Source of the DNA: Levilactobacillus zymae DSM 19395
GTDB taxonomy: Bacteria > Bacillota > Bacilli > Lactobacillales > Lactobacillaceae
Assembly (NCBI RefSeq): GCF_001434115.1
Contig: NZ_AZDW01000014.1
Location: 1 to 64,000, forward strand
DNA length: 64,000 bases
Direction of reading: 5' to 3'
Below the pieces are notes generated by a model, which did no database searches, was not told the origin of the DNA, and saw nothing but the letters and a program-made list of their open reading frames with translations. The translations under genes and the position numbers were made by a program. Numbering within the stretch: the first letter of the stretch is position 1; each line of letters begins with the position of its first letter. Shown piece after piece: positions 3,631 to 37,314 of this stretch.

Positions 3631-4593
3631 TTAATTAGCAGTCGCCTTGACCGTGACCCGAATCGTCGCCGGATCAAAGGCGGTCACTTCATTGTCGTTG
3701 GTGTCTAACGTCACGGTCTTAGTGGCCGTACTCTTGACGTCGCTCACATCGACATCGACCTGCGCCGTACTCAGCGCTTTCAGTTGGGCCGCACTTCCGA
3801 AGGCCTTCACCTTGGTCGTCGAACTGCTTAGTTTATACGTCGTCCCGGACGAGCCATTCTTGGCGTTCAGCTTGACGTTGACCGTCTTGCTGGCCCCCTT
3901 GGTGATGGGCAAATTGACCGTGGTAGTCGACGGCGTCAAGATCACGTTGACCGTCTTGCCCTGCTTATCCAGTGCCTCAATCACGGCCTGACTGTTGACG
4001 GTCTTCTTGGTGTTCTGCGGGACGGAAAGTTGGGCGATCACCTGGCTGACCCGGGAAATCTCGTTGGCCGCCCCGGTAGCCTTCACGTTAGTCACGTCGG
4101 TCGTGGGTTTACCCGCGGTATAACCTGACGCGATATTTTGCTGGTTGAACCGGACCTTCACGGGGAAGGAGACCGTTCGCCGCGGCTCGATGTCCACGGT
4201 AATCTTCGCTGGTGAGATCGACGATTCAATCTCGTGATTCAACCCCTCTTGGTGTAACGACACCTTGTGCTTGCCCGTCCCCAGGTCGCTCAACGAGGCA
4301 TAGACCTTGAAGTTCTGAGTGTTAGCCGTGGTGGTGACCAAAGCTAACGGGCCGCGCAAGGTCACCTTGACCTTCTCGGGATACCCCGTAACGAAGTACT
4401 TATTACTATTCACGTTTAATTGGAGGGGTACCGACACCGTCATGGTCTTGGTGGCCGTTAACGACGTCTTGCCGGAATTAGTGGTCTGCTGACTACTCGA
4501 GGACTGGGTACTGTTCACGTAAAAGAACAGTAAAATCGCCAGGATTAGCGCCAGAATGCGGTAGATCCACGCCGTATAGTGTTGATTTTTCAT
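3631..4593 (-). CDS. cdaR: YbbR-domain regulator of the diadenylate cyclase
   Basis: A 320-aa protein with one N-terminal membrane helix (about residues 10-27, IYRILALILAILLFFYV) and an extracytoplasmic part rich in beta strands and Thr/Val, made of about three YbbR repeats. In Firmicutes CdaR binds CdaA and modulates c-di-AMP production. The start codon overlaps the cdaA stop by one base (TAATG), which points to translational coupling. Identification rests on position and the YbbR-like pattern, since sequence conservation in this family is low. Confidence 0.92.
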   Translation of the reverse strand: MKNQHYTAWIYRILALILAILLFFYVNSTQSSSSQQTTNSGKTSLTATKTMTVSVPLQLNVNSNKYFVTGYPEKVKVTLRGPLALVTTTANTQNFKVYASLSDLGTGKHKVSLHQEGLNHEIESSISPAKITVDIEPRRTVSFPVKVRFNQQNIASGYTAGKPTTDVTNVKATGAANEISRVSQVIAQLSVPQNTKKTVNSQAVIEALDKQGKTVNVILTPSTTTVNLPITKGASKTVNVKLNAKNGSSGTTYKLSSSTTKVKAFGSAAQLKALSTAQVDVDVSDVKSTATKTVTLDTNDNEVTAFDPATIRVTVKATAN

Positions 4594-11044: not shown

Positions 11045-11581
11045 GTGAACTTTGTCGCCATGGACTTTGAAACGGCCAACGGCAAGCGCTACAGTGCCTG
11101 TTCGTTGGCGTTGACCATCGTCCGTAATAGCCAAGTCGTCGATGAATTTTACTCACTGATCAAACCCGATACCGACTTTTTCTGGCGCAACGTCCAGATT
11201 CACGGGATCCACGAAGCCGACGTGGCAAACGCGCCCACCTTTCCCGAGGTCTGGGAGCACGTGGCGCCGTTCTTCCAACGCGACCGGTTGGTGATCGCCC
11301 ACAACGCCCCGTTCGATAACGGCGTGTTGCGCAGCAGTCTGGAACACTACCGCCTTCCCGCGGCCCGGTACCTGACCCTAGATACCGTCAAGACCAGTCG
11401 GAAGTTCTTCCCGGAATTTCCCAATCACAAATTGGATACGGTCTGTGAACAACTCAACATCGACTTGCACCATCACCACAATGCGTTAGACGACAGCTTG
11501 GCGTGCGCCAACATCCTGTTGTACGAAGCCAACCACTTCGGCACCCAGCCGCTCAAATCGTTTATTAAGGTGAATGCTTAG
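11045..11581 (+). CDS. DnaQ-like 3'-5' exonuclease (DEDDh)
   Basis: A 178-aa single-domain exonuclease of the DnaQ/epsilon type. Motif I is MDFETANG, motif II lies around HNAPFDNGVL, and motif III is HHNALDDSLACANILL with the DEDDh His. Such short free-standing proteins are common in lactobacilli and may act in DNA repair or RNA processing. The substrate is not known. The start is GTG with AAAGGAAG eight bases upstream. It shares an operon with exoA and is followed by a repeat element and a strong terminator. Confidence 0.88.
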   Translation: MNFVAMDFETANGKRYSACSLALTIVRNSQVVDEFYSLIKPDTDFFWRNVQIHGIHEADVANAPTFPEVWEHVAPFFQRDRLVIAHNAPFDNGVLRSSLEHYRLPAARYLTLDTVKTSRKFFPEFPNHKLDTVCEQLNIDLHHHHNALDDSLACANILLYEANHFGTQPLKSFIKVNA

Positions 11582-11590
11582 CCATTAAGA

Positions 11591-11670
11591 TTGGGGCAAA
11601 AGGCGATTTGCTGACTTACGGAGTTCAGCGGAGCCAGCTGCCTTTTGGCGCACGTTTCAACATCAAATGT
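11591..11670 (-). repeat. Shortened copy of the 3'-UTR hairpin repeat family
   Basis: Read on the minus strand, about 70 bases match the element at 15.47 kb closely, including GAAACGTGCGCCAAAAGG and GTAAGTCAG. Here the element lies 3' of the + strand exonuclease gene, so its orientation relative to the gene matches the other copies. CAAAAGGC near 11599 pairs with GCCTTTTG near 11640. An inner GCTGA/TCAGC stem replaces the long variable arm. Confidence 0.8.
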
Positions 11671-15415: not shown

Positions 15416-15450
15416 AAAAAGGGTCTGGGACAAAAGTCTCAGGCCCTTTT
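15416..15450. terminator. Bidirectional terminator between the LURP-one gene and smpB
   Basis: Stem AAAAAGGGTCTGGGAC / GTCTCAGGCCCTTTT around AAAA. It serves the + strand gene directly, and smpB after the repeat element. Confidence 0.85.
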
Positions 15451-15468: not shown

Positions 15469-15589
15469 TGTCGAAACGTGCGCCAAAAGGCAGCTGGTTC
15501 CGCTTAACCCCGTAAGTCAGATAATCCAAGTTCGGGATTATCCGCCTTACGACGTTAATGCTCACCAGCTAACCGCCTTTCGTCCCACT
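15469..15589 (-). repeat. Full-length copy of the 3'-UTR hairpin repeat
   Basis: Lies between the smpB stop and the terminator. Helices on the + strand: AAAGGC 15486-15491 with GCCTTT 15575-15580; AGCTGGT 15492-15498 with ACCAGCT 15564-15570; TTAA 15504-15507 with TTAA 15555-15558; CGTAAG 15511-15516 with CTTACG 15546-15551; GATAATCC 15520-15527 with GGATTATC 15535-15542. Internal loops are symmetric (5x5, 3x3, 3x3). The copy near 35.3 kb has the same plan. Confidence 0.88.
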
Positions 15590-15604
15590 CTCTTTTTAGT
15601 GGTT

Positions 15605-16078
15605 TTAATAATGTTTCATGACCCGGGCAATCTGCCGGTCTTGTTCGCGGCGCTTCAGGGATTCACGCTTGTCGTACTCGCGTTTCCCGTGGGCAACCCC
15701 AATTAAGACCTTCGCAAACCCGTGCTTGAGATAGACCTTCAGGGGGATCAGGGTGACCCCTTTATCCTGCGTGGCCAAACCCAAGCGCTTGATTTCCTTC
15801 TTGTGGAGCAGTAATTTTCGATTTCGTAACGGATCGTGGTTGAACTGGTTGCCTTGCGCGTACTCACTGATGTGTACGTTCATCAACCAGGCTTCCCCGT
15901 TACGAATCTGGGCGAACCCATCTTGTAAGGTGATTCGCCGTTCCCGCATCGATTTGATTTCGGTCCCGGTCAACACCAAGCCCGCTTCGATCGTTTCGGT
16001 CACGGTATAATCATGCCGGGCCTTGCGGTTCTGGGCGAGTTGGTTATCCGGGGTCTTTTTCGGTTTCCGTTTAGCCAA
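15605..16078 (-). CDS. smpB: tmRNA-binding protein SmpB
   Basis: Delivers tmRNA to stalled ribosomes for trans-translation. The 157-aa protein has the family segments [27 protein letters not shown] and the basic C-terminal tail [16 protein letters not shown]. The start is TTG (codon for M in MAKRKPKK) preceded by GAGGTGG. It follows rnr by 15 bases, an association known from many Firmicutes, where RNase R degrades the released defective mRNA. No ssrA (tmRNA) gene is seen next to it. Confidence 0.97.
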
Positions 16079-29339: not shown

Positions 29340-29356
29340 CCGAGTAATTGCTGTGA

Positions 29357-29428
29357 TGCGCCCGGAGGGAATCGAACCCCCATTTCAAGAACCGGAATCT
29401 TACGTGCGATCCATTACACTACGGGCGC
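29357..29428 (-). tRNA. tRNA-Arg (anticodon CCG), copy 1
   Basis: 72 bases. Acceptor stem GCGCCCG/CGGGCGC, D arm GTGT/GCAC, anticodon arm with loop TTCCGGT (anticodon CCG, reads CGG), T loop TTCGATT. The 3' CCA is not encoded (ATCA follows). It is identical to the copy at 30919. A promoter TTGTAT-17-TATAGT lies at 29458-29486. Confidence 0.95.
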
Positions 29429-29457
29429 ATAGTTGCTGTGCTCAACAACACTTAACT

Positions 29458-30914: not shown

Positions 30915-30918
30915 GTGA

Positions 30919-30990
30919 TGCGCCCGGAGGGAATCGAACCCCCATTTCAAGAACCGGAATCTTACGTGCGATCCATTACACTACGGGCGC
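30919..30990 (-). tRNA. tRNA-Arg (anticodon CCG), copy 2
   Basis: Identical over all 72 bases to the copy at 29357. The identity extends a few bases on each side, giving an 80-base direct repeat (29353-29432 and 30915-30994). The promoters and terminators are of the same type but differ in sequence. Confidence 0.95.
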
Positions 30991-31022
30991 ATAGCGCTGA
31001 TGTCCTTAACAGAACATTAACC

Positions 31023-34910: not shown

Positions 34911-34957
34911 AAAAAGGCCGTTTCTCGGGGATTGATTCCCGAGAAACGGCCTTTTGG
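34911..34957. terminator. Terminator of the rapZ-yvcK-whiA operon
   Basis: AAAAAGGCCGTTTCTCGGG / CCCGAGAAACGGCCTTTT, a 17-bp stem, bidirectional. It lies about 410 bases after whiA, with the repeat array in between. Confidence 0.9.
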
Positions 34958-34990
34958 TTTTAGTCATAATTTGGTCCCAACGCTGGGATT

Positions 34991-35284
34991 TCGCCCGTAG
35001 GCTGGCGCCATCTGCGGCCGCTGAAACGTGCTTTTAGGGGACAGCCAGTTCCGCTTAACCCCATTTCGGCGATTAGCCAAGCCCATTCAATCATTGGTAT
35101 CTCGCCCGTAGACTAGCGTCATCTGCGGCTTCTGAAACGTGCGACTGACGGGCAGCTGGTTCCGCTTAACCCCGTTTCGACAACTAGCCAAACTCATTCA
35201 ATCATTGGTATCTCGCCCGTAGACTAGCGCTATCTGCGGCTTCTGAAACGTGCTTATCAGGGGCAACGGGTTCCGCTTAACCCC
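34991..35284 (-). repeat. Tandem 111-bp repeats (two units and a partial third)
   Basis: Units begin TCGCCCGTAG at 34991, 35102 and 35213, exactly 111 bases apart. Each contains GAAACGTGC, a variable block of 16 bases, then GTTCCGCTTAACCCC, the left half of the hairpin family. Units 1 and 2 continue into a shared CATTCAATCATTGGTATC. The third leaves the tandem register after AACCCC and enters the full hairpin. Confidence 0.9.
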
Positions 35285-35365
35285 ACTAACGGAATCATCC
35301 CCCAAAATCGGGGATAATCCCGTTAGTGGCCTTAATGCTCGCCCGCTGACCGCCCCTGAACGCAC
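35250..35365 (-). repeat. Full-length copy of the 3'-UTR hairpin repeat, after whiA
   Basis: GTGC 35250-35253 pairs with GCAC 35362-35365; CAGGGGC 35258-35264 with GCCCCTG 35352-35358; CGGG 35267-35270 with CCCG 35342-35345; TTAA 35277-35280 with TTAA 35332-35335; CCACTAACGG 35283-35292 with CCGTTAGTGG 35320-35329; ATCCCC 35297-35302 with GGGGAT 35310-35315. It begins one base after the whiA stop. Confidence 0.88.
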
Positions 35366-35366
35366 T

Positions 35367-36296
35367 CTACGCCTCACGCAACTGCTTGGCGTAATCGTTG
35401 ATCTTTCGTAATCGGTGGTTGATCCCGGACTTCGAGATTGGCCCACCCGGTACCAGGTCGCCCAATTCCTTGAGACTGACCTCCCGGTGCGCCAGACGCG
35501 TTTCCGCTACCTCGCGTAACTTGGTCGGCAGTTGTCCCAACCCCACCGTTGCCTCAATGTATTGAATATTATCAATTTGACGCGTCGAGGCGTTAGCCAC
35601 CTTGTCCAGATTGGCGTTTTCGCAGTTGACCAGTCGGTTGACCGAATTGCGCATATCACGCATGATACGGACGTCCTCAAACTTCAACATCGCCGTGGTG
35701 GCCCCGATCAACGACAAAAAGTCGGCAATCTTTTCGGCCCCCTTGAGGTAGGTAATGTAGCCACTGCGCCGTTCAATGGACCGGGCGTTGAGGTTGTACT
35801 GGTTCATCATCTTGGCAATCATCTGGTTATGCTCCTCGTACAAGGAGTAGATTTCCAGATGGTAGCGACTGGTTTCGGGATTGTTGACCGACCCGCCGGC
35901 CAAAAAAGCCCCCCGTAAGTACGACCGCATCTGCAGGTCGGACTTGAGGATGCTTTCCGGGACGGATTCGGAGAGTTGGACGCCGTCGAAGATGCCGAGA
36001 TCCGACAAGACTTCGGTCACGCCCGTTTTGACCCGCACGATGTACAGGTTATTTTTCTTGAGCTTCATTTTTCGCCGCACCAGTAATTCGCTCTCCAGGT
36101 CGTAGAACTGCTTGAGCAGTTGGTACATCCGGCGCGCGATGGCGGGATTTTCCGTTTGGACGTTCAGGACAAAGTGGTGGTTCGCCAAGCCCAGGGCCCC
36201 GTTCATCCGAATCAGGGCCACCAGTTCGGCCTTGGCATTGTCCCGGTGAACTTCCAACGTGGTCAGCTCTTTTTTGACTTCGCTGGCATAAGACAT
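35367..36296 (-). CDS. whiA: WhiA-family DNA-binding regulator
   Basis: A 309-aa protein with an N-terminal LAGLIDADG-like fold ([26 protein letters not shown] near 135) and a C-terminal helix-turn-helix ([26 protein letters not shown]). In Firmicutes WhiA affects cell division and chromosome segregation. The start [12 protein letters not shown] at 36296 fits the family N-terminus. An upstream ATG lies inside yvcK. It is the last gene of rapZ-yvcK-whiA and starts 4 bases after the yvcK stop. Confidence 0.96.
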
Positions 36297-36300
36297 GTGG

Positions 36301-37314
36301 TTAAGACCCCCGATCGATACGGTAACGCGGTTGGCCAATCAGGTTCAGCAGTTCGCTGACCACCTCTTGACCGTTATGAAACGCCCCGTTATCGCGTAAT
36401 TGTAAGAAGTCCGTCGAAATCACCCGACAACCTTGGTCGCGGAGACCTTGGAAGTCGTGACGGACCGGCTGAGACATTTCGTCCCACCGTTGATAGTCGA
36501 TGTATTGGTCGGGCACCTTGCGGGTGTTGACCAATACCGTGTCAATAAAGTTCGTGTTTAAATGCTGGTTCAAGACCCGCACGTGATCGGCGTCGGTAAA
36601 GTTTTCGGTCTCACCTTTTTGCGTCATGATATTACAGATGTAGACCACCTCGGCCGGGCTTTCCCGGACCGCGTTGCCGACGCTTTCGATCATCAGGTTC
36701 GGTAGGATACTGGTAAATAAACTCCCCGGTCCCAGGACGATTTGATCGGCGTTCATGATGGCGTCGATCACGGGCTGGACCGCGTGGGGTTGCTGGTGGT
36801 GGTCACTGGTTTCGACCCACACCCGTTTGATCAGTTTGTGCGCCGCCGTGATCTCCGATTCCCCACTCAAAGTACTGCCATCGGCAAACTGGGCGTGCAA
36901 TTCCAGCGGTTCGTTGGCCGCCGGGTAGATGTGGCCGTTGACCCGCATCAGTTGGGACAACTCCTGCACCGCATCGAAAATACCGCCCTTCATCTCGGAC
37001 AGCGCCGCGATAATCAGGTTGCCGATCGCGTGACCGGCAAAGAAGTCGTCGGTGGTTTCGAAACGGTATTGAAATAGGTCTTTATAAATGTCGGGCACCT
37101 CGGCTAAGGCCACCATCACGTTACGAATGTCACCAGGTGGCACCACGTTGACGTAATGGCGAATGATACCTGAGGACCCGCCGTCATCGGCCACGGTCAC
37201 GACCGCGGTGATGTCGACGTTTTGGTCCCGCAGGTTCCGTAAAATGACGGGTAACCCGGTTCCCCCACCGATCACGACAATCTTCGGCCGGTGGGTATGC
37301 ATAGGATCTCTCAT
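36301..37314 (-). CDS. yvcK: YvcK-family gluconeogenesis/morphology factor
   Basis: A 337-aa protein of the CofD-like family with a Rossmann N-terminus ([18 protein letters not shown]), VADDGGSSG and [13 protein letters not shown] motifs. YvcK is needed for growth on gluconeogenic carbon and for cell shape in Bacillus, and binds UDP-sugars. The start overlaps the rapZ stop (ATGA). A second ATG four codons in is also possible. Confidence 0.95.

Follow-up and report, generated by a model that had tools for sequence, protein, structure and literature searches.

Behind the stop codon of whiA in Levilactobacillus zymae DSM 19395 lies a sequence that folds into a long hairpin, and a second copy with the same fold and largely different helices is found near 15.5 kb of the same DNA stretch (contig NZ_AZDW01000014.1, positions 1 to 64,000; this whole stretch of 64,000 nucleotides (nt) is hereafter called the window). 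The original prediction regarded the matched changes on opposite arms of these two copies as strong evidence that the structure itself matters, which raises the question of whether this holds and what kind of element would carry such a structure. According to our analysis, the two copies belong to a family of repeats of about 118–125 nt in the Lactobacillales that apparently behaves as mobile. The family is multi-copy, has a common fold, a one-strand polarity and a preferred placement behind genes, and differs in presence at matching sites of related genomes. We consider it about an even bet that the family is mobile but non-autonomous, spreading through recognition of its folded single strand and hitch-hiking in 3' untranslated regions (UTRs).

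Fold and covariation of the element

The gene whiA (35367–36338, minus strand) was identified with NCBIfam TIGR00647 (E 1.8e-119). The full copy behind it comprises 123 nt on the minus strand (35245–35367; R1 match of 118.1 bits, E 1.1e-27); it is slightly longer than the extent of 35250–35365 first proposed, and its first nucleotide lies inside the whiA stop codon (TAG, 35367–35369 in minus-strand reading). Folded as RNA, its minus strand reaches -73.0 kcal/mol (z -9.51) versus -58.6 (z -7.64) for the plus strand, and the corresponding values for the copy behind smpB, at 15.5 kb, are -59.8 and -42.8. The minus strand, the sense strand of both genes, is the better-folding strand. A function of the plus strand was rejected, given its weaker fold and the occurrence of A.C in place of G.U.

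The sense strand can be modelled as one long rod in which P1 and P2 lead to a constant internal loop, with a hypervariable hairpin at the apical end. In the RNA sense, its 5' side reads GAGUG, P1/P1b, a bulge with UA, P2, UGA, GC, A, UUAA and P4, and the 3' side continues after P4 with UUAA, GC, nnAA, P2', UG, P1b'/P1' and CACGUUU; the constant internal loop sets UGA opposite nnAA, and the adjoining stem consists of G-C, C-G, a bulged A and UUAA/UUAA. In the whiA copy, the 3' arm of the basal helix P1 (GCAC, 35250–35253) pairs with 35362–35365 according to sequence and fold, and the TTAA arm of P3 (35277–35280) pairs with the TTAA at 35332–35335, as is also seen in the alignment of own-genome copies. 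The apical hairpin P4 (35283–35329) has 20 base pairs and a 7-nt loop in the minus-strand fold, with arms at 35310–35329 and 35283–35302. All of the helix-arm changes previously listed between the two copies were recovered in the sequence. The segments TCCGC and TGCTC, which had been described as unpaired, are in fact partly paired through their GC dinucleotides. Of these two pairs, one shows double-sided change in 21 of the 88 distinct rows, the new pair being U-A in 16 of the 21.

Covariation was assessed in two alignments. The first, A2, contains 23 copies of the own genome (selected by regular expression out of 30 loci); 93.3% of its cells pair, and 20 of 44 pairs show double-sided change (shuffle mean 12.9), with 107 double-change cells (shuffle mean 30.2), neither value being reached in any of 500 shuffles. 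The second, A3, contains 91 model matches from 60 loci in 19 genomes of the same family, including one opposite-strand and one cut-off match. Its counts lean towards structure because it was fitted to the model: 91.9% of cells pair, double-sided change is seen in 38 of 41 pairs (shuffle mean 34.2), and there are 1188 double-change cells versus a shuffle mean of 362.5. When the partners in A3 were slid by 1–3 columns, pairing fell to 36.8–41.6%. Substitutions independent of the pairing partner, which would speak against a role for the structure, were looked for in both alignments, and the changes were found to follow the partner. The claim that the structure itself matters is supported by this covariation across many copies. 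The comparison of the whiA and 15.5-kb copies alone is weak evidence, because the apical hairpin swaps as a block and its arms need no separate point mutations; the differences between these two copies may reflect such an exchange.

Stronger evidence for the fold is provided by the covariation of the outer helices seen in A3, by the constant internal loop and by the excess of G.U over A.C. Counted on the minus strand and leaving out pairs that are mostly G.U, the G.U:A.C ratio was 31:7 for the 23 copies of the own genome and 265:60 for a set of 105, whereas shuffling partners within pairs gave 1.65 and 1.40, respectively. Changes of both the C-to-U and the A-to-G kind are present, so C deamination alone does not explain the excess. 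Of the unpaired residues in the 105 copies, constancy is highest for those of the internal loop (G 1.00, A 1.00, bulged A 0.97, A 0.99), for an A of the bulge (0.96) and for the GTTT of the 3' end (0.86–0.95). A kink-turn or loop-E identity of the internal loop was considered and did not fit.

Copy number, arrays and taxonomic range

The genome of DSM 19395 carries 33 full copies (at least 79 bits) among 54 matches at E <= 0.1, the remainder being weaker or on the opposite strand. With up to two mismatches, the core motif occurs in it at 42 places, versus 6 for a reversed control pattern. Matches were found in 107 of 251 genomes and 19 of 40 genera of the family sample. The order sample has them in 74 of 295 genomes, representing 31 of its 74 genera, and 54 of the 74 matching genomes lie outside the window's family (in families f2, f3, f5, f7, f8 and f9). 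Among the 299 genomes of the phylum sample only the own genome matches (1/299). The family, order and phylum searches used stricter filters, at which some weak matches are lost; under laxer filters, none of 15 genomes picked as match-free (G084 and 14 others) gained a match. Three congeners yielded 38, 40 and 70 matches at E <= 1e-5, numbers that may include opposite-strand matches. Carriers among the matches listed in a pattern scan include Levilactobacillus, Lactiplantibacillus, Latilactobacillus, Lapidilactobacillus, Liquorilactobacillus, Ligilactobacillus, Lacticaseibacillus, Furfurilactobacillus, Paucilactobacillus and Companilactobacillus. Two short contigs titled as a Chryseobacterium gleum metagenome-assembled genome (L198, L251) also match the pattern and are perhaps mis-binned Lactobacillales DNA.

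A relative of the smpB copy was found on three Pediococcus damnosus plasmid records; on plasmid pL21532-2 of this species (L409, 1501–1612, plus strand) the match begins 16 nt past the coding sequence of an ABC ATP-binding protein. A phage match was sought for the whiA array, and a plasmid match for the whiA array and for a copy of genome G038; none was obtained, and phage and plasmid origins were set aside on these grounds, the smpB copy alone having plasmid matches.

Copies are frequently arranged in tandem: of the 148 matches in 78 named loci, 71 stand alone and the others make up 18 pairs, 12 triples and one array of five. Adjacent units are 39–84% alike, the lowest value coming from a truncated match. 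In some arrays (L219, L248, L216) the short A-rich linkers have the same sequence as the flank upstream, and in others they do not; in L219, AAATCA precedes every unit. Of 212 copies, 19 lie between direct repeats of at least 5 nt and of varying length, versus a mean of 6.3 and a maximum of 13 in 300 shuffles. Orphan halves in the named loci numbered two for the 3' and two for the 5' half, a count that is uninformative because the motifs recover just 60 and 50 of the 148 known copies; the asymmetry between 3' and 5' half units is taken from the reading of individual arrays.

One such array lies behind whiA, where two additional 3'-half units follow the full copy within 34984–35244 as a 111-nt direct repeat. 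The nearer unit (35134–35194, minus strand, right edge approximate) extends from the 3' strand of the apical hairpin to GCACGTTTC and has no 5' half; the second (35023–35083, minus strand, right edge also approximate) was recognised from the direct repeat and from comparison with the sister genome G273. Behind the array stands a terminator-like hairpin (34912–34955, minus strand), a 21-nt inverted repeat with 95% complementarity followed by a T-run.

Placement relative to genes

Placement was analysed against mechanically called open reading frames (ORFs), using the first-in-array copies for the relatives and the named sample. In the own genome, the upstream ORF is in sense for 28 of 33 copies, in 16 of these 28 within 20 nt. 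Sense placement was also found for 49 of 65 copies in the relatives (70 first-in-array copies, five without an upstream neighbour), with 39 of the 49 within 30 nt, and for 70 of 89 in the named sample (91 first-in-array copies, two of them lacking an upstream neighbour, after exclusion of 11 others close to locus ends), with 59 of the 70 within 20 nt of the stop. Within co-directional spacers of the named sample, 30 copies are in sense versus 9 in antisense, and six copies overlap a called ORF. Some copies follow a T-run instead, as if placed behind a terminator. Because the copies lie mostly in sense, right after a stop codon and often before a terminator, they are expected, judging from the sequence, to be present in transcripts as part of the 3' UTR. 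The preceding genes are diverse; they were named by reading their sequences, except for WhiA and SmpB, which were identified with NCBIfam.

In locus L099 (genome G002), a facing pair of copies occurs twice, 2.7 kb apart (1411–1758 and 4131–4478), each time directly after what we read from the letters as a T-box-like terminator sequence.

Turnover between related genomes

In 30 of 35 congeneric whiA loci, the 420 nt past the stop codon were inspected by eye; seven contain a copy or a remnant (L141, L142, L143, L161, L163, L164, L168), and the other 23 have no copy within this distance. An element or role specific to whiA is not supported, given these 23 loci and the diversity of the carrier genes. 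The whiA site itself varies among genomes whose WhiA is 99% identical: the own genome has one full copy and the two 3'-half units, G273 one full copy and G251 two full copies in tandem. The P4 of the own whiA copy is wholly unlike that at the same site in G273, and the apical 3' strand of the half unit farthest from whiA is that of the single full copy in G273.

For 21 of the 33 own copies, the counterparts of both flanks were located within 2.0 Mb of G273. Ten of these comparable sites are occupied, nine are empty (gltX, smpB, C24, C26, C41, C1:44039, C16:150145, C49:20527, C21:39669), and two (C23, C16:197542) have gaps of more than 2 kb; at the empty C26 site the flanks are just 66–68% alike. 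At six of the nine empty sites (gltX, smpB, C41, C49:20527, C16:150145, C21:39669), the A-rich tract that follows the gene can be made out, the terminator there being often a different one, and at C21:39669 a 19-nt sequence stands on both sides of the inserted stretch, with one imperfect counterpart in G273. Two of the occupied sites belong to one prs array, the second being a half unit in G273, and the C56 copy is internally deleted there. P4 is wholly different at five of the ten occupied sites (whiA, prs, C49:16680, C34:30008, C49:75225), and at the first four of these the outer arms are near-identical despite the swapped P4.

Constraint acting in place was examined in orthologous copies, of which six of eight pairs were readable. 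Changed base pairs were kept and broken, respectively, 11 and 4 times at C31:35273, once and 3 times at C1:31500, and once each at C34:4734; pairs with swapped hairpins gave 10 and 3 at whiA, 9 and 2 at C49:16680, and 18 and 2 at C49:75225. This result is mixed, and the sample is too small to decide between a mobile element and a host function.

Mobility and its alternatives

If the family is a non-autonomous mobile element, a trans-acting enzyme would recognise and spread the folded single strand, either RNA or the equivalent single-stranded DNA, and new copies would land in A-rich DNA ahead of terminators. Half-unit arrays could then arise by repeated insertion or by recombination, followed by loss of 5' halves. 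A more specific proposal, which we put forward only tentatively and hold to be rather unlikely in its full form, is a new class of Lactobacillales mobile elements: its transposition substrate would be the folded strand of an mRNA 3' UTR or the matching single-stranded DNA, and insertion next to stop codons and terminators would be the work of an enzyme that belongs to none of the known Y1/HUH, reverse-transcriptase and IS110 systems, with the apical hairpin as a cassette exchanged between copies.

Several observations weigh against mobility. No match to Y1_Tnp (PF01797) was found in the own genome (G000), G049, G082 and G044, all of them copy-rich; none to the reverse transcriptase RVT_1 (PF00078) in G000, G003, G049, G082, G044 and G038; and none to the IS110 DEDD transposase (PF01548) in G000, G003, G049, G082, G030 and G044. 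Contig breaks could hide a mobiliser gene, but the completeness of the own genome is given as 99.98%. In the 30 genomes searched, these domains were present in 16, 12 and 9, respectively, copy-rich and copy-free alike. Beyond the 3–4 base pairs of P1, over which the ends GAGTG and CACGTTT pair, no terminal inverted repeat of the kind expected in a DDE-type miniature inverted-repeat transposable element (MITE) was seen in the alignment. The direct-repeat signal, examined as a possible target-site duplication of fixed length, comes mostly from arrays, and tandem duplication or the A-rich end of the element could mimic it. The terminator also differs at several of the sites compared with G273, and C24, C26 and C1:44039 have no clear A-tract, so that insertion, deletion and replacement are not separable. 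The G.U:A.C ratio in structures slid by 1–3 columns covers a wide range (0.65–3.06 for 23 copies and 0.93–2.39 for 105 copies). A host function would also be compatible with the persistence of the element across the order and with the constancy of its loops.

The main rival is indeed a host-useful 3'-UTR RNA, which would be bound beside the stop codon by a conserved protein or would protect the 3' end of the mRNA. In line with it are the sense orientation, the short distance from the stop (at most 20 nt for 59 of the 70 copies placed in sense), the one-strand polarity, the four loop residues that are 97–100% constant in 105 copies, and the breadth of occurrence in the order sample, where 31 of the 74 genera have matches. 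Against this stand the diverse carrier genes, the differences in site occupancy between close species, the internally deleted relics, the 15 match-free genomes that remain so under laxer filters and the orthologues at C1:31500, although those at C31:35273 mostly keep their pairs. We regard such a function as possible, though less likely than a mobile element. Spread by homologous recombination alone, between similar terminator hairpins and existing copies and without a transposition enzyme, appears improbable. It would account for the whole-P4 swaps and for the GACTTTTGTC loop or core that is common to the terminators near several type-A copies (e.g., 15421–15446 in the window) and differs from the terminators at the matching G273 sites; however, newly occupied sites of the own genome share little beyond the A-tract, and arrays join units that are no more than 39–84% alike.

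The arms of a DNA palindrome could also come to match by template switching from one to the other, which would produce covariation without selection, and the apical hairpin does change as a block at five of ten shared sites. Since an exact complement predicts no G.U excess, the observed 4.4:1, against 1.4–1.65 in within-pair shuffles, is hard to reconcile with this mutational artefact, as are the constancy of the mismatched internal loop and bulge and the covariation of the outer helices; we therefore consider it very improbable. The element is multi-copy, folded, intergenic and located at gene ends, as might be expected of a known structured mobile class such as REP/RAYT (repetitive extragenic palindromic sequences with their associated tyrosine transposases), integron attC sites, IS110 bridge RNA or group II intron remnants. 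This is the least probable of the explanations weighed here: the REP/RAYT, reverse-transcriptase/group II intron and IS110 bridge-RNA routes were set aside because none of their three domains gave a match in the own genome (the searches did not cover an integron integrase), and all Rfam matches on the element are below threshold.

The element, for which there is no Rfam model, has tens of copies in some Lactobacillaceae, and these often begin a few nucleotides past a stop codon. If it is mobile, it would point to a further mobilising enzyme and would offer a naturally replicated test of the effect of a stop-adjacent structure on termination, mRNA decay and release; if it is functional, it would represent a large undescribed class of 3'-UTR RNA.

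Comparison with known repeats

In the window, only two tRNAs reach the gathering score of Rfam release 15, and none of the models does so on the element. Across 20 element loci at E <= 0.5, the only matches on the element were mir-4477 (33.9 bits versus a gathering score of 74, E 0.0088) and mir-2765 (29.1 versus 58, E 0.056), both below threshold, and a sub-threshold Plastid-psbJ-5 match (E 0.081) falls on the window hairpin. We read all three as chance matches to a long hairpin, and an identity with any Rfam class was rejected. Among the top-listed open-licence papers on repeats, RNA motifs, MITEs and small RNAs, no description was recognisable as this element. It is apparently unnamed, and belongs to a known kind, the dispersed structured repeats of the bcr/Efa type: its copies are numerous and intergenic, its fold is conserved, and species differ in which sites are occupied.

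REP sequences and bacterial interspersed mosaic elements (BIMEs), which are associated with RAYT (Y1) transposases, are dispersed palindromes often located at the 3' ends of genes. The present element differs in its length of 118–125 nt with a constant internal loop and in the lack of a Y1 match in the own genome.

The repeats bcr1–bcr18 of the Bacillus cereus group are described as intergenic, multi-copy and often located in UTRs; bcr1–bcr3 are called MITE-like, and for bcr10 and bcr18 a conserved secondary structure is noted (PMC3446304). Compared with these repeats by description, the element is likewise intergenic, multi-copy and expected in UTRs; it differs in occurring, among the samples searched, only in Lactobacillales, and in lying in sense and adjoining a stop codon. 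Efa-1 of Enterococcus faecalis, a structured intergenic repeat of 163 bp with 65 copies, belongs to the same order as the host of our element and may be its relative; compared by description only, it differs in being presented as a pair of adjacent stem-loops (PMC2267715). The L17 downstream element (RF01708) is structured and occurs in Lactobacillales and Listeria, its name implying a position downstream of a gene (PMC2864571); it has no match to the window or to the 20 element loci.

Other copies and features of the window

The core motif GGTTCCGCTTAACCCC, with up to three mismatches, occurs five times in the window (shuffle mean 0.81, maximum 3 in 100 shuffles). The 15.5-kb copy (15473–15590, minus strand; R1 match of 127.2 bits) is a full copy of type A and begins 14 nt past smpB (15605–16078, minus strand; an ORF matching NCBIfam NF003843, E 4.7e-64); it is followed by the terminator-like hairpin at 15421–15446, and its site is empty in G273. 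One of the five core-motif matches is part of a relic copy (11589–11658, plus strand; R1 match of 32.5 bits, E 1.1e-4), in which most of P3/P4 is deleted internally and which lies 7 nt past the stop of an ORF for a DnaQ-like exonuclease (11045–11581).

The window also contains two tRNA-Arg (ccg) genes of equal Rfam score on the minus strand (29355–29429 and 30917–30991), 1.56 kb apart, and the two ORFs scanned between or over them have no NCBIfam match.
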